39,596 bases of DNA, taken from positions 1 to 39,596 of IMG/VR virus record IMGVR_UViG_3300042469_000894. One strand, written 5' to 3'. Origin of the DNA: a virus. The translations under genes were made by a program, and so were the position numbers. The notes below the pieces were generated by a model, which had not been told where the DNA came from, ran no database searches, and saw only the letters and a program-made list of their open reading frames with translations. This document shows positions 17,163-28,165 of the stretch, piece after piece. Each line of letters begins with the position of its first letter. Position 1 is the first letter of the stretch.

Positions 17163-19088
17163 ATGCAACCTTACGTCATTCATAATCGTTGGGCCTTGGG
17201 TGACACCGTGGCCTTGTCAGCGGTTGTTAGAGATTTGAATCTGACGTATCCCGGTAAATACCGCATTTCTATGGCAGGAAGTTATTCGTCTTACTGGCGG
17301 TACTTTCCTTACGTCTACCCTTTAGATCCCAAGTTAAATGCTCCTGTCATTCAAATGGAATACGACGACGGCATTCGAGAATCGGTATCAGGCGTCAAAC
17401 AGCATTTCGTATCATTCTTCCACAAGAAATGGAAACAACGCACAGGTATTGACGTTCCTGTGCTGCATCCAAAAGGCGAAATTTTTCTCGGTCCCAACAA
17501 AGAAGAAAAATTAGTTGCGGGCAGATACTGGGTTGTCGTTGGTGGTGGCAAAGTAGATATGACAGCCAAATGGTGGTTGCCTTCCAGATTTCAAGGCGTT
17601 GTAGATACGTTACTCAAGTATGGCATTAATTGCGTACAAGCAGGAGCAGCCTTTACGCGCAACGTCCATCCTGTGCTTAACAACGTGAAATACATGGTTG
17701 GATCTACGGATGACATTGCTGACTTGTTTAGATTGATCTACCACGCTGAAGGTGTCATCTGCGGCATCACATCGTTTATGCATATCGCCGCCGTGTTCGA
17801 CAAGCCATGCGTTGTGTTGGCGGGAGGACGCGAAGAATGGTGGTGGGAAGGTTATTCCAACCACGGCCAATTCCCCGACACATGCGCTCCCGTTAAAGTG
17901 CCGCATAAGTTTTTGCACACGATAGGTCAAATGGATTGTTGTAAAACGTCGGGGTGCTGGAAAAAACGAACCGTGCCTATTGATCAAATGGATTTAACAA
18001 ACAGCAAAGCAAAATTACAGTTATGTCTGCATCCTGTACGTACCGACGAACAACCGGTGCCTGAATGCTTAAACCGTATCACTGTAGATCATGTGGTGGA
18101 GAAAGTCATGGAATATTACGAAGACGGGACTCTACCTCCTATTTCGCAGCCATCCCGTAAATATTCACTAGAAAATGTTCTTCCTGTTAAAAATGTCAGT
18201 CAAACAGCCACTACGTTGGATATCCTAAAACCCGTGACAACCGCGGTGACTGTTAAGACTGCGCCCCCTCCTCCTGAAAAACATGACCTATCACAGGAAA
18301 CCGAATTTGATCTGTTTGGAGTTATGGACAATCCTTACATCGGTGGCAAGTTTACAATCTTTGTTCTCTGCTACGGCGATCACACCGAGTTAGCTAAAAC
18401 CTGCATTGAAGGCATTCTCAAAACGTTGCCCCGCAAACGCATAGATCTACGTGTCGGTTTAAATGCCGTATCTCGAGCTACGTACGATTTTGTGGCGTCG
18501 CTTGGACCCGTCGTTACAAAAATCTACCATCACGAAGACAATGCCAAAAAGTATCCAGTCATGCGTGAAATGTTCCACGATCCAAGTTGTCCTGTCACTA
18601 CGCCATATCTTGTTTGGTTTGATGACGACACGAAAATTATTGATTCCATGTGGGCAGCGCGTCTAGCCGAAACAATTAACTTGAATCATCGAGAAGGTTG
18701 TCGGTTGTACGGTACCAAGATGTATCACGATCTAAGCGCCATGGCTATCGGCGGACACAGACCTGACTTATGGTTCCGCCAAAGCGACTGGTTTAGAAAC
18801 GTACACTTGAGGCTGTCGAATAAACAAATGCTGGCATCTAACGGTTCTTGTGTAGATTTTGCCGTGGGTTATTTTTGGGCACTGGCAACTGAAACTATGA
18901 AGCAAGCTAACATTCCCGACGTTAGGCTTAATCACAACGGCGGAGATATTACCATAGGTGCGCAAGTACATCAGCTTGGTGGTAAAATCAAAGACTTCAA
19001 TGCAGGAAAGAAATACGTCTGGTGCCCGCCCAAAGATAAAGGCGGACGTCGCGGTTTTTCTGAAACTTTTCCGTGGGGGCGTAAATAA
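17163..19088 (+). CDS. Two-domain glycosyltransferase: GT9-like plus GT-A-type
   Basis: A 641-residue fusion. The N-terminal part resembles ADP-heptose:LPS heptosyltransferases (GT9, GT-B fold): NRWALGDTVALSAVVRDL at residues 8-25 corresponds to the usual 'GD' nucleotide-sugar loop, and YWVVVGGG and CGITSFMHIAAVFDKPCVVL match the second Rossmann half. A Cys motif, MDCCKTSGCWKKR, follows. After a Pro-rich linker (about residues 335-375) comes a second domain with FTIFVLCYGD and a WFDDDTK motif at residues 485-491, the DXD metal/nucleotide-sugar site of GT-A enzymes. Donor and acceptor are unknown. Immediately downstream of virion genes and coupled to the next gene by TAATG. Confidence 0.8.
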   Translation: MQPYVIHNRWALGDTVALSAVVRDLNLTYPGKYRISMAGSYSSYWRYFPYVYPLDPKLNAPVIQMEYDDGIRESVSGVKQHFVSFFHKKWKQRTGIDVPVLHPKGEIFLGPNKEEKLVAGRYWVVVGGGKVDMTAKWWLPSRFQGVVDTLLKYGINCVQAGAAFTRNVHPVLNNVKYMVGSTDDIADLFRLIYHAEGVICGITSFMHIAAVFDKPCVVLAGGREEWWWEGYSNHGQFPDTCAPVKVPHKFLHTIGQMDCCKTSGCWKKRTVPIDQMDLTNSKAKLQLCLHPVRTDEQPVPECLNRITVDHVVEKVMEYYEDGTLPPISQPSRKYSLENVLPVKNVSQTATTLDILKPVTTAVTVKTAPPPPEKHDLSQETEFDLFGVMDNPYIGGKFTIFVLCYGDHTELAKTCIEGILKTLPRKRIDLRVGLNAVSRATYDFVASLGPVVTKIYHHEDNAKKYPVMREMFHDPSCPVTTPYLVWFDDDTKIIDSMWAARLAETINLNHREGCRLYGTKMYHDLSAMAIGGHRPDLWFRQSDWFRNVHLRLSNKQMLASNGSCVDFAVGYFWALATETMKQANIPDVRLNHNGGDITIGAQVHQLGGKIKDFNAGKKYVWCPPKDKGGRRGFSETFPWGRK

Positions 19089-19456: not shown

Positions 19457-19912
19457 ATGTCCGACAAAAGCCTGAAACTGCAACGGTATCAATCACAAGA
19501 AGTGCAGTACAAGCAAAATGCTGCTGTGCGTCTAAGAATTGTTGTAACCGACGCAACCAACATTGACGCCAACATCTTTGTCTTTTTAAGGTCACCGCTT
19601 AATCCGCATACTGGTGAAACGTCAGATATGTTTCAAACCATTGCCAGCCCCTACGACATGGAAGTTTATCCCGTTGATGAACCTGACGAAAACTCAACAT
19701 ATCCGTTTTTCCGCAGTAATATGCTTGAACTTGATTTTCCCTCTATCACGTTAGCGAATGACGCATGGACACGAATCGTAGCAATGACTCAAGCGCTAAT
19801 CACGGCCAGTAAAAAATTAGATGTATTGTCTTTGGTGGAAGAAGTTACTGTAGGTGATGCGTCGGCACCAAATCCGTCACAGTCCCTATCAGATTCATTC
19901 TCTAACTCGTGA
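19457..19912 (+). CDS. Hypothetical protein, possible head/tail-completion type
   Basis: A 151-residue soluble protein with TAGGAG seven bases before ATG 19457. A beta-rich N-terminal 100 residues (VRLRIVVTDATN, IFVFLRSPLN) is followed by a helix (WTRIVAMTQALITASKKLDV) and a Ser-rich tail. No recognised family. Its stop overlaps the leader of the next gene. A structural role is only suggested by position at the end of the virion block. Confidence 0.6.
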   Translation: MSDKSLKLQRYQSQEVQYKQNAAVRLRIVVTDATNIDANIFVFLRSPLNPHTGETSDMFQTIASPYDMEVYPVDEPDENSTYPFFRSNMLELDFPSITLANDAWTRIVAMTQALITASKKLDVLSLVEEVTVGDASAPNPSQSLSDSFSNS

Positions 19913-19920
19913 GGTGTGGT

Positions 19921-20220
19921 ATGTCTACAGATAACCGCAAAAAAATGGTTGTTATAGAAGACAGCACTTTAGCCTCTATGGCTGCTAATGATGCGTTTGT
20001 ACAAGAGTTTCCATTCTTGCAGCAATTAAGAGCCGTTCCTCGTGGTGGTTGCGGTGGATGCAACCGAAATAAAACAGCGAATGTTTTTGCAGCAGCTAAA
20101 AAATCTGTGGCAGGATTGGACAGTGAGCGTAAACGTAAACTTAAGGAAATGCTCAACACGAAAGAGTTAAGAATTACATACCGTTCTGGCGACGGTAAAA
20201 TCCTTACGCTGGTATTTTAA
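19921..20220 (+). CDS. Small basic hypothetical protein with GGCGGC motif
   Basis: A 99-residue protein; ATG 19921 is chosen because GAGG (19911-19914) is six bases upstream, whereas the GTG at 19909 overlaps the previous stop without a site. It contains RAVPRGGCGGCNRNK near residue 40, then a helical basic region (DSERKRKLKEMLNTKEL). The Cys pair and lysine/arginine content could fit nucleic-acid or metal binding, but no family is recognised. It is the last gene of the long virion block. Confidence 0.65.
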   Translation: MSTDNRKKMVVIEDSTLASMAANDAFVQEFPFLQQLRAVPRGGCGGCNRNKTANVFAAAKKSVAGLDSERKRKLKEMLNTKELRITYRSGDGKILTLVF

Positions 20221-20297
20221 CAGCCTAAATCCAAGGCAAAAACGCGTCATATTCTTTGCATCCCGTTTATTTATAACGAGATGAGCAAGGAGGACCT

Positions 20298-20648
20298 ATG
20301 GCGATTGTGCCTCGCAGGAGTTTCAACTTCCTCGATCTAATCGAGGAGCCGACAAAAGCGGTGGCACAGAAGCCACCAGTTCATGACGATATTATCGTCG
20401 CAACACCACCGACAACTCCGTCGGTGGTGTATAACTACACCCCGGCCCCGATAAACGTAAATTTTGGGCCGGATGTAGAACAAGTCCCAGTCAGCGGATT
20501 TGGGATTTGGTTTACGATGCTAATCATCTATGCACTAGGCTATGGCCTAGTGCAACAAGGCTGTGGACAATTAGTCCACTTGCTTGAGATCATCGCTCTG
20601 GGCACCACGCTACACTTGCGTGGCGCTCTATACCGCCGCAGACAATAA
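20298..20648 (+). CDS. Small membrane protein encoded by hairpin-rich DNA
   Basis: A 116-residue protein with a strong AAGGAGG site before ATG 20298. The N-terminal half is Pro/Val-rich and soluble; residues 68-105 contain hydrophobic stretches (GFGIWFTMLIIYALGYGLV, then LVHLLEIIALGTTLHL) that could make one or two membrane segments, followed by a basic end (RGALYRRRQ). No family recognised; a holin-like or membrane-anchor role is possible but unsupported. The striking feature is in the DNA: almost the whole gene consists of consecutive inverted repeats (see the structure entry), so the sequence may be constrained as RNA or DNA as well as protein. Confidence 0.6.
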   Translation: MAIVPRRSFNFLDLIEEPTKAVAQKPPVHDDIIVATPPTTPSVVYNYTPAPINVNFGPDVEQVPVSGFGIWFTMLIIYALGYGLVQQGCGQLVHLLEIIALGTTLHLRGALYRRRQ

Positions 20649-20730
20649 AATGAGTTTCCCCAGATAAATTGATTTCAAGCCCGGTATTGCGCTCAAACGC
20701 AGTACCGTGCTTGACAATTTATCTGGGGAA
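20329..20730 (+). other. Array of consecutive hairpins ending in a 32-bp stem
   Basis: Inverted repeats follow one another. A: 20329-20336/20340-20347, 8 bp, loop CTA. B: 20360-20365/20372-20377, 6 bp. C: 20385-20390/20394-20399, 6 bp, loop ATT. D: 20403-20413/20420-20430, 11 bp. E: 20435-20448 with 20466-20478, 5+7 bp. F: 20483-20489/20501-20507, 7 bp with one G-T. G: 20531-20540/20545-20554, 10 bp, loop TATG. H: 20563-20568/20574-20579, 6 bp. I: 20605-20610/20618-20623, 6 bp plus outer pairs. J: 20656-20691/20698-20730, about 32 bp with a 3-base bulge and loop CTCAAA. A-I lie within the membrane-protein gene and J just after it. Perfect stems of 10-11 bp with short loops are far beyond chance. 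Confidence 0.85.
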
Positions 20731-20786
20731 CTTATCATATTTTCGGTGCGACAAGTCCAACCTTTTTCTTATGTATTGGAGTAATT

Positions 20787-21104
20787 GTGTTTAAGATTAT
20801 TGAAAACGCTACGTCCTACACCCCAGACATGTCGCGTGGTACGGTAGTGGTCGAGAGTGATCATGGCATTGGAAAGTTTGCAGAAGCTATGGAAGAGTTG
20901 TCAGGTAACGAGGCTAAGCACTTTGCGCTTGCCTCCGTAGCGCATATGGGGCTTACACATATTAACGGCAACGTTATTGGGCCATATCCTGTCAACGCAC
21001 AGGGCATAGTGCTTGACATGAACAATACAGAACTGCCACCAACTCATCCTGACAGGCAGCCAAGTCGTTATCGCATCGACGTACCGGTAACACGTAAATT
21101 CTGA
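20787..21104 (+). CDS. Hypothetical protein
   Basis: A 105-residue soluble protein. GTG 20787 has TGGAG (20777-20781) upstream. The sequence (VVVESDHGIGKFAEAMEELS, LASVAHMGLTHINGNVIGPY) has no recognised motif; it is acidic in the first half and Pro-rich near the end. It starts a new run of small genes after the hairpin array. The stop overlaps the next ATG (TGATG). Confidence 0.65.
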   Translation: MFKIIENATSYTPDMSRGTVVVESDHGIGKFAEAMEELSGNEAKHFALASVAHMGLTHINGNVIGPYPVNAQGIVLDMNNTELPPTHPDRQPSRYRIDVPVTRKF

Positions 21105-21613
21105 TGACACCAACTAAAACTGTATTAACGGCGGCAAAAACTCTAACCCATCCAAGGTTTGAGCAATTTTGCCGCCGTTTTTTGCATTTGACGCAAGACC
21201 AGTTAAAACAAGGGCTTGACGACAAAACGCAAATTTTAATTTATTTGCTGGAGTGGCTTATTCATCTTGGTCTGTTTTCAGATGCAGATCAGGAAATAAT
21301 TATAAGCACTTACAGAGAGCAACTGGTAAAATGTTTAAATGTTTGGAAAGACGAAACTAAAGCCGCAATGACAACATTTGGTTTGACGGTTTGTGACGGT
21401 AAATACGTTGGCTGGACAGGTGAAGAAAAGTTCTTAGAAGTTTCCAGTGGTGATAAATTAGAAGAATTACCGCGAACGCCTGTGACGCTTGTCGTTTGCA
21501 ATGTGACAGAACTATTCAATCGCAAGAAAGAATACATTCTGGCGATGGAGCAAGAGAATGAACGACAGCATACTCATGGGATCGACCCTGACAGTTCCAC
21601 AACAAACACTTAG
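21104..21613 (+). CDS. Hypothetical protein with terminator-like hairpin in its 5' end
   Basis: A 169-residue soluble protein coupled to the previous gene. It is mostly helical in style (FEQFCRRFLHLTQDQLKQGL, ILIYLLEWLIHLGLF). No recognised family. Codons 8-27 contain a long inverted repeat followed by T6 that looks like an intrinsic terminator; translation of this frame would prevent it forming. Its 3' end overlaps the next gene by 56 bases, and the ribosome site of that gene (GGAG at 21547-21550) lies inside it. Confidence 0.65.
   Translation: MTPTKTVLTAAKTLTHPRFEQFCRRFLHLTQDQLKQGLDDKTQILIYLLEWLIHLGLFSDADQEIIISTYREQLVKCLNVWKDETKAAMTTFGLTVCDGKYVGWTGEEKFLEVSSGDKLEELPRTPVTLVVCNVTELFNRKKEYILAMEQENERQHTHGIDPDSSTTNT
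21127..21183 (+). terminator. Terminator-like hairpin inside a coding region (possible attenuator)
   Basis: AACGGCGGCAAAA (21127-21139) pairs perfectly with TTTTGCCGCCGTT (21167-21179). An inner stem joins CTC-AACC with GGTT-GAG, and the right arm runs into TTTTTT (21178-21183). Located 23 bases into the 169-residue gene. The layout fits translation-dependent attenuation: when ribosomes follow, transcription continues; otherwise it stops. Activity is inferred. Confidence 0.65.
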
Positions 21614-25538: not shown

Positions 25539-25576
25539 TACAATGGGTGAAAGACTTAAATCTTTCACCCATTGTA
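25539..25576 (+). promoter_or_regulatory. Perfect 16-bp hairpin before the GT61 gene
   Basis: Left arm 25539-25554 (TACAATGGGTGAAAGA) pairs without mismatch with 25561-25576 (TCTTTCACCCATTGTA) around loop CTTAAA. No T tract follows, so it is not a typical terminator. It lies between the ATPase stop and the chosen GT61 start at 25586; an RNA-processing site, translational blocker or protein-binding site is possible. Confidence 0.75.
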
Positions 25577-25585
25577 TGGTGCCCC

Positions 25586-26596
25586 ATGTACGACCACATC
25601 TTAAAGCCATACACGTTCGGTTTACGCACGTTACATGATGTGGTAATGGATTCATCTCGACATGTGGTATTGCAATGCAACTCGGAAATATCACCGCGCC
25701 ATTTGTGGACGCATTTTCAAAACTTGAGTTACGAAAAATACGATAAAGTCTTACGGTATGCTCATTTAATAAAAACAGAAAATCCTGTAGTAATTGATGC
25801 CGGTTACTACATACCCACGTATTGTAATTTTTACCATACGTTGATTGACGGCATTCCTCGCGCATGGGGAGCGTTTGAAGATAAGACACACGATCTAATA
25901 GTGTGTGAAAACAACCTAGATGCTTTTAAAGGGCTTAGGGCAGTTGTAGAAAACTGGTTACCTAGAAACTCTTTAAGTACTTATACCGTGGATCCAAAGT
26001 TTGCTGTGTTGCCAGACGGTAGCACAACATACGGTACGACTAACCGTTTGCATGCTAAAAAATTATCTTACTTTTCTGTACTAGATGTTGGTAAAGACGA
26101 TGCGCGAGTAGTGAATAGACGCCTAGCAGTTGCGTTGTGGCAAAAGTACGCCAACGAGCATTGGGAAACAAAGCCACCCCGCCGCCGCTTATTCGTAGGG
26201 AGGTTGAAAAATTACAACTTAACTCAACGTTGCGCCAATCAAGTTGATTTAGCGGCCTTTCTTAAAAGAAGGCATGGCTTTGAGTTGTGGTGTACGGAAG
26301 ATCATAATTTGATAGAAAACGCTAAAGCATTTCGAGAAGCAAAGGTTATTGTTGGTGTTCACGGCGCAGCGTTAAGTCATTTGGCGTTTTGTTCTCCAGA
26401 AACTAAATTTGTGCATTTGACGCACAAAAACAAATCAGAACATTTTTTTAATTGCATCTGTGATTTTGCTAACGTTCGACGCAAAAGTGTTTATGGGATT
26501 AACCCAAAAATTGGAAAAATAGCTACAGACCCCGCAGTATTGTTTGAAGTGTCAAAAGCAAATGTCGTAAAAGCAATTACTGAATTACTTAAGTGA
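25586..26596 (+). CDS. GT61-family (DUF563) glycosyltransferase
   Basis: A 336-residue protein from ATG 25586. GTG 25547 is in frame but lies in a hairpin stem, so the ATG is preferred; neither has a clear ribosome site. Family marks: YCNFYHTLIDGIPRAWG at residues 79-95 (the 'NYFHWLxDxLPR' motif), RRRLFVGRLKNYNLTQR at 200-215, and VIVGVHGAALSHLAFCSP at 254-271 (the GxHGAGLxN-type loop that binds the nucleotide sugar). GT61 enzymes transfer xylose, GlcNAc or related sugars; acceptor here unknown. The gene may act with the GT9-like/GT-A enzyme at 17163. Confidence 0.85.
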   Translation: MYDHILKPYTFGLRTLHDVVMDSSRHVVLQCNSEISPRHLWTHFQNLSYEKYDKVLRYAHLIKTENPVVIDAGYYIPTYCNFYHTLIDGIPRAWGAFEDKTHDLIVCENNLDAFKGLRAVVENWLPRNSLSTYTVDPKFAVLPDGSTTYGTTNRLHAKKLSYFSVLDVGKDDARVVNRRLAVALWQKYANEHWETKPPRRRLFVGRLKNYNLTQRCANQVDLAAFLKRRHGFELWCTEDHNLIENAKAFREAKVIVGVHGAALSHLAFCSPETKFVHLTHKNKSEHFFNCICDFANVRRKSVYGINPKIGKIATDPAVLFEVSKANVVKAITELLK

Positions 26597-26887: not shown

Positions 26888-28165
26888 ATGAGCACTATCA
26901 CAACAGGATCCGAGCAAATGAATTTCAACTTCGATGAGACCAAGCCAACGATTAGTCCAAACGAACATGCGGCGACGATTACTAATATTGCTTTGAACTG
27001 TCAGGAAGTTACGTACGCCTGTTCTTGGTTCTCTCAGTCAAAGCAGGTCGATGCCAAAACTAAATTCCAGATGGTCTCGGTAGTGTCCGGGGAAAGCAAA
27101 GGTTTCGGTGTGAGCAAGAAATTGCTGACGTCAGGACATCCGTTGCTGAGTGAGTTGAATACGTGTAGACGAAACTTGCATGCGTGGCGAGATGCTTTCA
27201 CAATCGTAAAGGCTAATGCTGCTAACGACACTACGATTGAAGGCGGTGTCAGACTGATCCGCGTTGAAGACATGGAAGAGTTCGAGCGCGGTTTCTTTCT
27301 GCGTCGAGATCAATTATATTCAGCAGCAGATCGTGTAACCGCACACCTCAATGCGCCATACACCGACGCAGATGGTACGGCGTGGGATTCGATTCTTGAT
27401 CTTGACCGTCAACGTCTTGGAGATCAGTTCAATCTACGCGACTACCCGGATAGTCTGCGACAGGTCATCACGGTGAGCGATCCTGTGTACACGGCGTACA
27501 AACCGTCTGTGCGATTGCCGGCTGCCATCTACCAACGGGAGTGCTCCCGTGTCGCTTCGGAAATCGATAGAACGATCCAAACGGCAACCGACTACATCAC
27601 GTCGGAGTTACAAACAGCCTTTGAGACGCTGGCCAATCAGTTGGTGCAGCGCACACGCGTCCATCCTCACGAGATGGATACTGAAGTTGTTAGATTCATG
27701 AACGCGGAAGTAGTACGCCAAACTGTTACCGGCGACAACATTACGGTCGAATTGAAATACGCCGTAGATGGCGACAAGAAGGTCACCGAAGTCTTGACGA
27801 TGCCCACAGAAACGTTCAAGACACGGTTCTGTCCTGTCGAAACGGAAGAGCGCAAGCGTATCACCACAAGCACCATCCAGCACATTATGGAAAAGCTGAA
27901 TGGCTTCGGTCACATCCGATCCATGTTGGGCGCTCAGGGCGTTCAAATGGATGCGGCTTTAGATCAAATCCGGGCACAGTTTAGTCGTGTTGGTGGGCGG
28001 AGCGAAGAGATTGCTCACGAGATCAAGAGCAGTCGTAGTTTCCGCAAATCGTTGGCTACGGCATTGACCAGCAGCGTGGAAACGTTGCTTGAACAGGCCG
28101 ACGACGTGAAGAAGGTAAGGCGTGCCGTAAATCTGGACGCCATCAAGTTGTGGGAAAAAGACTAA
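26888..28165 (+). CDS. Hypothetical 425-residue protein
   Basis: ATG 26888 is chosen; GGAG at about 26874-26877 lies ten bases upstream and an earlier in-frame ATG at 26867 overlaps the previous gene's stop. The protein is soluble and largely helical with a central predicted coiled-coil region (YQRECSRVASEIDRTIQTAT, SELQTAFETLANQLVQR). The C-terminus is a long basic helix (KSSRSFRKSLATALTSSVET). No enzyme motif seen. It starts 1.3 kb after the AAA ATPase and could be its substrate adaptor, but that is only proximity. Confidence 0.7.
   Translation: MSTITTGSEQMNFNFDETKPTISPNEHAATITNIALNCQEVTYACSWFSQSKQVDAKTKFQMVSVVSGESKGFGVSKKLLTSGHPLLSELNTCRRNLHAWRDAFTIVKANAANDTTIEGGVRLIRVEDMEEFERGFFLRRDQLYSAADRVTAHLNAPYTDADGTAWDSILDLDRQRLGDQFNLRDYPDSLRQVITVSDPVYTAYKPSVRLPAAIYQRECSRVASEIDRTIQTATDYITSELQTAFETLANQLVQRTRVHPHEMDTEVVRFMNAEVVRQTVTGDNITVELKYAVDGDKKVTEVLTMPTETFKTRFCPVETEERKRITTSTIQHIMEKLNGFGHIRSMLGAQGVQMDAALDQIRAQFSRVGGRSEEIAHEIKSSRSFRKSLATALTSSVETLLEQADDVKKVRRAVNLDAIKLWEKD

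Follow-up and report, generated by a model that had tools for sequence, protein, structure and literature searches.

A hairpin-packed small gene, ORF116, and a set of motif-delimited, strongly folded units in large uncultured phages

The interval 20225-20779 of virus record IMGVR_UViG_3300042469_000894 (39,596 bases, analysed over its full length and called the window here) contains a small unit that is, by its motifs, a transcription unit. Its cargo, as the motifs delimit it, is a hairpin-packed open reading frame of 116 codons (ORF116), and, judged by the same motifs, the lineage has about nine units of this kind, this one included. When compared as sequences, these units share motifs, fold to an extreme degree beyond codon constraint, lean toward folding of the transcribed strand, replace their stems and encode differing proteins. 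As a class, the units very probably give rise to mRNA that is selected for structure, and the same is probable for the ORF116 unit considered by itself. There is an even chance that nuclease resistance is the reason for this structure. The best explanation as a whole, a small transcription-type unit whose mRNA hairpins are selected as a nuclease shield, is put forward with middling confidence.

The features of the unit and its two neighbours are listed below.

19909-20220, plus strand: upstream neighbour of about 100 aa with a Cys motif, from alignment and synteny (a homologue precedes the unit in relatives)
20225-20251, plus strand: promoter-like motif CTAAATCCAAGGCAAAAACGCGTCATA, then a -10-like TATTCT, from motif searches
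20287-20294, plus strand: strong ribosome binding site AAGGAGGA within a short leader, from the sequence
20298-20648, plus strand: hairpin-packed ORF of 116 aa (ORF116), from ORF and folding analysis
20656-20730, plus strand: large hairpin of about 31 pairs ending the unit, from the fold
20763-20779, plus strand: conserved tail TTTTTCTTATGTATTGG (family form TTTTYYTTAGCTATYRG), from its position relative to the unit
20787-21104, plus strand: downstream neighbour of 105 aa with a GTG start, the next conserved gene in many relatives

The predicted order of the unit is thus promoter-like motif, short leader, ribosome site, membrane-protein-like ORF of 116 codons, large hairpin and conserved tail. 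The ORF116 protein has a Pro-rich first half and a hydrophobic stretch at residues 67-85, features that resemble those of a membrane protein, and no family match was obtained for it. The end of the large hairpin at 20730 is separated by 32 nt from the T run at 20763. Having no T run directly after it, this hairpin does not qualify as an intrinsic terminator and is omitted by the terminator scan. Only 7 nt lie between the tail and the GTG of the next gene. A candidate promoter for the gene at 20787, TTGACA-16-TATCAT, which agrees with a sigma-70 promoter at 11 of 12 positions, is found at 20711-20738, where it overlaps the right arm of the large hairpin and extends just beyond it.

ORF116 contains eight perfect stems of at least 6 bp with loops of 3-8 nt, equal to 23 per kb, compared with 1.9 per kb for the whole window. 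Three perfect stems of at least 8 bp with loops of 3-10 nt were observed in 20298-20735, where 0.04 are expected. The preliminary description of this DNA had reported a run of inverted repeats here, and stems were located at those positions by folding and by the scan for perfect stems, as follows.

20329-20347, plus strand: stem of 8 bp, loop of 3 (fold, perfect-stem scan)
20360-20377, plus strand: stem of 6 bp, loop of 6 (fold, perfect-stem scan)
20385-20399, plus strand: stem of 6-7 bp depending on the loop, one pair lost in L004/L005 (fold, scan, haplotypes)
20403-20430, plus strand: stem of 11 bp, loop of 6 (fold, perfect-stem scan)
20426-20441, plus strand: stem of 6 bp, loop of 4, overlapping and alternative to the end of the 20403-20430 stem (fold, scan)
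20442-20472, plus strand: stem of 7 bp, loop of 17, one pair lost in L004/L005 (fold, haplotypes)
20531-20554, plus strand: stem of 10 bp, loop of 4 (fold, perfect-stem scan)
20563-20579, plus strand: stem of 6 bp, loop of 5 (perfect-stem scan)
20605-20623, plus strand: stem of 6 bp, loop of 7 (perfect-stem scan)

The large hairpin at 20656-20730 consists of 16 perfect pairs and a 17-nt arm with 88% pairing. It had been described as a perfect terminal stem of 32 bp; it is not perfect, because a bulge and a mismatch occur within its approximately 31 pairs.

The RNA of 20280-20740 folds with an energy of -212.0 kcal/mol, compared with -131.4 (sd 6.4) for 100 dinucleotide shuffles. The corresponding z is -12.6, and no shuffle was as low. 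For the ORF at 20298-20648, an energy of -153.8 kcal/mol compares with -109.0 (sd 5.8) for 200 codon shuffles that retain the protein and its codons; the z is -7.75 and the lowest shuffle reached -125.9. The preliminary description had called the hairpins far from chance and had proposed both of these comparisons; the claim was upheld by the native energies, which lie below every control of either kind, and by the density of the stems. Chance or composition as the cause is excluded by the dinucleotide and codon shuffles. When the codon control was applied to 25 other genes of the window (up to their first 351 nt, with 60 shuffles per gene), z values from +1.5 to -4.5 were obtained. The lowest of these belongs to 21104-21613, a structured stretch that has no promoter motif, and a second such stretch, also without the motif, is present at 376-600 (about -4 in a scan with 150-nt windows). 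The three lowest-scoring windows of that scan all fall within the ORF116 region. No Rfam match at the gathering threshold was obtained for the window and nine loci, and below the threshold only chance-level matches appeared.

The window encodes a gpA-type terminase with 27-30% identity to the terminases of Salmonella phage Arash and Vibrio phage D69. Three contigs carrying ORF116 were found, with sizes of 61.7, 107.9 and 186.1 kb; over a 461-nt region one of them is identical and the other two are 98% identical. More distant relatives, with identities of 32-53% in a 241-aa neighbour and 33-38% in a glycosyltransferase, are uncultured contigs, the longest of which measures 235 kb. Searches for cultured relatives gave only chance-level matches for ORF116 and none for the 241-aa neighbour. 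A pattern search with the 241-aa neighbour in the GTDB genome collection, made to look for a host, gave 14 matches, of which none was confirmed. An RNA polymerase beta-type domain and CsrA are each encoded in all five relatives tested (G003, G005, G011, G004 and G013), and the cultured phages Arash and D69 also carry the polymerase domain. The search of the relatives' genomes for a T7-type polymerase gave no match and is uninformative, since its control was silent too. Phage RNase III was not found in the five genomes, with a control that was positive in 8 of 14 cases.

The site of the unit was compared in 36 loci that possess a homologue of the upstream gene, with near-duplicates removed (the 12 near-identical loci left out are L032-L034, L037, L043, L047, L061, L062, L071, L072, L082 and L104). 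The promoter-like motif, searched from just before to 200 nt after the stop codon of the upstream gene, is present in 25 of the 36 loci, the tail appears within 2 kb in 30, and both are found in 24; each of these counts is 0 of 36 in the upstream control stretches. In 34 of the 36 loci, the 1.9 kb that follow the upstream gene include a folded window with a z of about -5 or lower, compared with an upstream background of -0.4 (sd 0.9). In the window, the tail alone gives one match at up to three mismatches with 0.70 expected, which is not above chance, and its evidential weight therefore comes from its position. The cargo between motif and tail is the 116-aa protein in the window unit, a protein of 123-142 aa in twelve relatives and other ORFs elsewhere. 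In four loci (L054, L055, L058 and L059), the gap between motif and tail is 77-82 nt and no ORF exceeds 23 aa. A tblastn search with ORF116 against these loci gave nothing significant beyond the three near-identical copies (next best E 0.017). Because motif and tail recur while the ORFs vary, the frame is common and the cargo differs. A hairpin of 37 pairs, all of them standard and three of them G-U, occupies the same site in L036 (955-1034).

In G003, the 186-kb relative, motif and tail together mark out nine units, each about 290-870 nt long. All are on one strand, and they end at 184332, 183185, 180205, 179598, 85538 (the ORF116 unit), 27842, 27213, 2323 and 1900. When two mismatches are allowed, the loose promoter pattern gives 16 matches in G003 compared with 5, 10 and 7 in shuffles, and 3 in the window compared with 2, 1 and 1. 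Since this pattern is also frequent in shuffles, motif matches alone are weak; only matches followed by a tail were accepted as G003 units. The strict motif, with at most one mismatch, was detected in 13 of 16 records, four of the 16 having themselves been found by that motif. It is present in up to nine copies and on a single strand in each record, and none of the 16 contained a match to the reversed pattern that served as control. In the other G003 units the tail comes directly after the hairpin, mostly as TTTTTTTTAGCTATYRG, which has the form of an intrinsic terminator with a conserved extension, and a G+C-rich hairpin with a T run immediately behind it was found at eight other unit ends. 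The extension AGCTATYRG after the T run of the terminator-like hairpins is seen, for example, in the tails at 180205, 183185, 184332 and 1900.

Structure in G003 is concentrated in the units. Windows of 120 nt inside them account for 16 of the 17 windows with z below -6, 28 of the 34 below -5 and 45 of the 73 below -4, and the units cover 115 of 4649 windows. None of 2000 random placements of nine units reached the observed mean, and a genome-wide spread of structure was not found in G003. Seven of the nine unit bodies are strongly folded; the weak ones end at 27213 (-1.2) and 2323 (-0.7). The median codon-shuffle z is -3.1 for 16 unit-linked ORFs of G003, G005 and G011, compared with -0.9 for 90 other ORFs (p 2e-8); this set omits the ORF of the G003 unit ending at 27213, and for the unit ending at 184332 it uses an 86-codon frame where a 35-codon frame has the better ribosome site. 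All eight unit ORFs found in G003 have a z of -3.1 or lower, and the unit-linked ORFs of G005 and G011 are weaker (-1.8 to -4.2). Six of the 90 non-unit ORFs have a z below -3, with one at -7.7; this value comes from the first 420 nt of a G003 ORF at 40195-41031, outside the units.

When stretches are ranked by structure, the top four of G011, three of them adjacent, adjoin such motifs, as do four of the top six in G005. No such class of structured units appeared in the genome scan of G004 (62% GC over locus L035) or in the whole-genome scan of Vibrio phage D69, where the best score was -3.1. Close to the presumed start, 12 of 14 units have a 5' hairpin with an energy of -20 kcal/mol or below, and that of the ORF116 unit is weaker (-12.4). 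Eleven of the 14 units are more open around the start than in the body, the ORF116 unit not being among these (0.29 compared with 0.36).

Orthologue pairs of unit ORFs were compared for changes in their stems, with slid partners as the control; the counts are small and are given without a significance test. Both-sided compensations numbered 5 for p97 (a 97-aa family, 83% DNA identity) compared with 0.8-1.5 in the slid control, 4-5 compared with 0.3-1.2 for a CsrA-like ORF in its three closest sequences (80-83%), and 5-6 compared with 2.2-2.5 for TM86 (an 86-aa membrane-protein family, 70%). For p124 the excess is slight when identity is 84%, and when identity falls to 43-55% the real stems are disrupted at least about as often as the slid ones. 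Compensation was no higher than in the slid control for the MQTEF and p262 orthologue pairs, and there was little or no excess between the CsrA-like ORF and the distant L155. Over the six gene groups the excess is therefore clear in two, weaker in a third and slight or absent in three. Every orthologue group stays strongly folded despite the stem changes. These results are read as selection for folding strength while individual stems turn over. The CsrA-like ORF of L148, L108, L149 and L155, located before the motif TTTYCTTAGCTATTGG, is itself packed with hairpins, and the ORF of L148 matches Pfam CsrA at 8e-15.

Two haplotypes of ORF116 are known, the second being that of L004/L005. Five of the six substitutions between them are synonymous and the remaining one is V34I. 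Within the stems of ORF116, one G-U pair becomes G-C and two pairs are broken. In the large hairpin of L004/L005, the pair 20663-20723 is compensated from G-C to A-T, the pair 20675-20714 is lost, and 20681-20708 is gained through the change of a C-U mismatch to an A-U pair.

When both strands were folded for 21 units drawn from six records, the transcribed strand gave the lower energy in 20, with a median difference of 28 kcal/mol; the 21 units were hand-picked from G003, the L234/L243 contig, L224, L238, L233 and L245, and several are mutually orthologous. Since G-U pairs help the RNA strand only, a bias toward the transcribed strand is what selection on RNA gives. The isolated mismatches within the stems of these units are 21 G-T, 3 A-C and 8 others. 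The same strand lean was found in 14 of 16 unit ORFs (median -12.5) and in 58 of 90 other ORFs (median -4.0), p 0.005. The sole exception among the 21 is the ORF116 unit (-226.7 and -236.9 in G003). The two strands of ORF116 alone fold about equally (-153.8 and -155.3), and the pairs of the unit are nearly all Watson-Crick, with 5 G-U of 106 compared with 12.9% in background windows. Because the ORF116 unit is the exception to the bias, a reading at the level of DNA remains for this unit alone.

Three options had been offered for the hairpins in the preliminary description. The structured mRNA is the best supported, by the promoter-like motif, the strong ribosome site, the predominance of synonymous substitutions and the strand bias of the class. 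The second option, a non-coding RNA whose frame is accidental, is not favoured for this unit, though the four loci with short gaps lack an ORF of more than 23 aa. Action of the DNA in single-stranded form is disfavoured for the class by the bias in 20 of 21 units and finds agreement in the equal folding of the strands in the ORF116 unit.

Selection would act on the mRNA for generic local double-strandedness and not for one fold. The 5' hairpin present in most units, the folded body and the 3' hairpin would together resist endonucleases and exonucleases, as folded RNA would offer few single-stranded stretches to the former and no free end to the latter. Short transcripts, probably early as predicted from the motifs, could in this way outlive general mRNA decay in the infected cell. 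Hairpins that stabilise mRNA at the 5' and 3' ends are known. In phage T4, as outlined in PMC3014915, folded messages are shielded from RegB, and sites for RNase LS are likewise masked by structure. The hairpins at the ends and the blocking of endonuclease sites by structure are points of likeness; units of the ORF116 type differ in that the coding body is folded as well. The Dip protein of phiKZ, an inhibitor of the RNA degradosome according to the summary in PMC4980113, likewise represents a giant phage countering RNA decay, but it is a protein acting in trans, whereas folding of the mRNA in cis is proposed here. Because both the ends and the body are folded, and given the precedents in T4 and phiKZ, the mRNA shield is favoured over its rivals. 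A more tentative proposal, somewhat short of an even chance, is a promoter-defined regulon of "armoured" messages in which the fold itself and not the sequence is selected, as a shield in cis against nucleases or RNA-targeting immunity; a DNA phage that has an RNA polymerase of its own would encode selected small genes in such a way that any series of tight hairpins suffices.

Alternatively, the unit may be a leader or attenuator. Transcription would start near 20258, the large hairpin and tail would control read-through into the next module, and the cargo ORFs would be optional. The loci with a motif-tail gap of 77-82 nt and no sizeable ORF agree with this reading, as does the 7-nt distance from the tail to the GTG at 20787, which leaves little space for another promoter. 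However, the dense hairpins inside ORF116 and the other G003 units are left unexplained, and the promoter candidate at 20711-20738 could serve the next gene independently. A leader or attenuator is unlikely.

If the unit were a regulatory or dual-function RNA that has a single specific fold, such as a sponge, an antisense RNA or a structural RNA, and contains an ORF besides, the strong local fold and the nearly ORF-less versions at the same site would be accounted for. Known CsrA sponges of the CsrB/RsmZ type are strings of hairpins, as are the units, and CsrA is encoded in all five relatives tested. Unlike those sponges, however, the units carry ORFs and few of their loops contain GGA: of the 259 hairpin loops in 21 units 17 do, and of the 10 in the ORF116 unit none does, as raw counts with no chance expectation attached. 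A CsrA sponge is disfavoured on these counts. The turnover of stems between relatives and the lack of an Rfam match at the gathering threshold in the window and nine loci also argue against a specific fold, and such an RNA is distinctly unlikely.

It is improbable that the structure serves to hide early transcripts from RNA-guided defence (type III CRISPR or Cas13) or from antisense RNA and not from general nucleases. Generic and replaceable structure limited to short units would fit such inaccessibility; on the other side, the GTDB search confirmed no relative of the 241-aa neighbour that could point to a host.

A DNA-level element, either a cruciform or a single-stranded origin, packaging or recombination site, is quite improbable. 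The two strands of ORF116 fold equally and the pairs of its unit are almost entirely Watson-Crick, as such an element would have them. Against it stand the RNA-strand bias of the class and the excess of G-T over A-C among the mismatches of the 21 units. Across the 36 loci, the hairpins that fold most strongly on the downstream side of the neighbour gene hold 120 G-T and 54 A-C, sums that keep rows possibly non-homologous (e.g., L046, L048, L077 and L080). The presence of several units per genome argues against a single origin or packaging site. A single origin, packaging or cos site was dropped as a candidate, since tail and hairpin recur several times per genome.

A mutational by-product, in which hairpin-templated (quasi-palindrome) mutation perfects stems without selection, would suit the unusually perfect and strand-symmetric stems of ORF116 but is scarcely credible, as it would not be expected to restrict stem density to units that share a promoter-like motif, to leave more G-U than A-C in stems or to yield compensations with the protein kept; the restriction to units and the G-U excess were both observed.

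Selection for dense RNA structure is already known from RNA viruses. In the genome-scale ordered RNA structure (GORS) of positive-strand RNA viruses and in the folded genomes of ssRNA phages, dense local pairing extends over coding sequence. Folding beyond controls that preserve codons and composition, the mark of such mRNA structure, was found here, and the pairing is in both cases dense, local and replaceable. The difference is that the whole RNA genome is folded there, and here a few small mRNAs of a DNA phage with a common promoter-like motif. Conserved structures in viral coding regions, those of phages included, have been compiled over RefSeq viruses (PMC6563262). The likeness lies in RNA structure inside viral coding sequence, in phage groups as well; the compilation, in its outline, deals with local conserved elements, and hairpin-packed gene sets are not described in that outline. 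For host takeover in Bacillus phage SPO1 and phage 0305phi8-36, an arrangement of small transcripts with one gene each has been suggested, as summarized in PMC2147016. The units resemble the takeover genes of that summary in being small genes, each apparently on its own transcript (here by motifs), and motifs for a putative promoter and terminator around one gene are present. However, the first 20 kb of SPO1, which include the takeover region, are not packed with hairpins: the best 360-nt score is -3.1, compared with -4.5 to -8.7 for the top five stretches of G003, on a null that was fitted on the relatives and is approximate.

Small hairpin-packed genes defined by a motif were not seen in Rfam, in D69 or in the scanned stretch of SPO1. 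No DNA phage with hairpin-packed coding units was found in the literature searched, which was represented by titles and the openings of abstracts, with most subscription journals outside its range. The hairpin-packed small genes suggest that the phage shapes these messages, perhaps so that they are hard to destroy. If this is true, a DNA phage would have a set of coding mRNAs, each packed with hairpins and all sharing one promoter-like motif, as a new means of controlling what becomes of its messages. The genomes also offer a natural experiment. Structured and unstructured genes of similar size coexist in the same genome, and the effect of coding structure on mRNA life, translation and immune recognition is therefore directly measurable. 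Candidate promoter and terminator motifs are supplied for a group of large uncultured phages.

Elsewhere in the window, matches to glycosyltransferase families 9 and 61 were obtained at 17163-19088 and 25547-26596, respectively, and a perfect 16-bp stem with a 6-nt loop is present at 25539-25576, at the start of a gene (25547).
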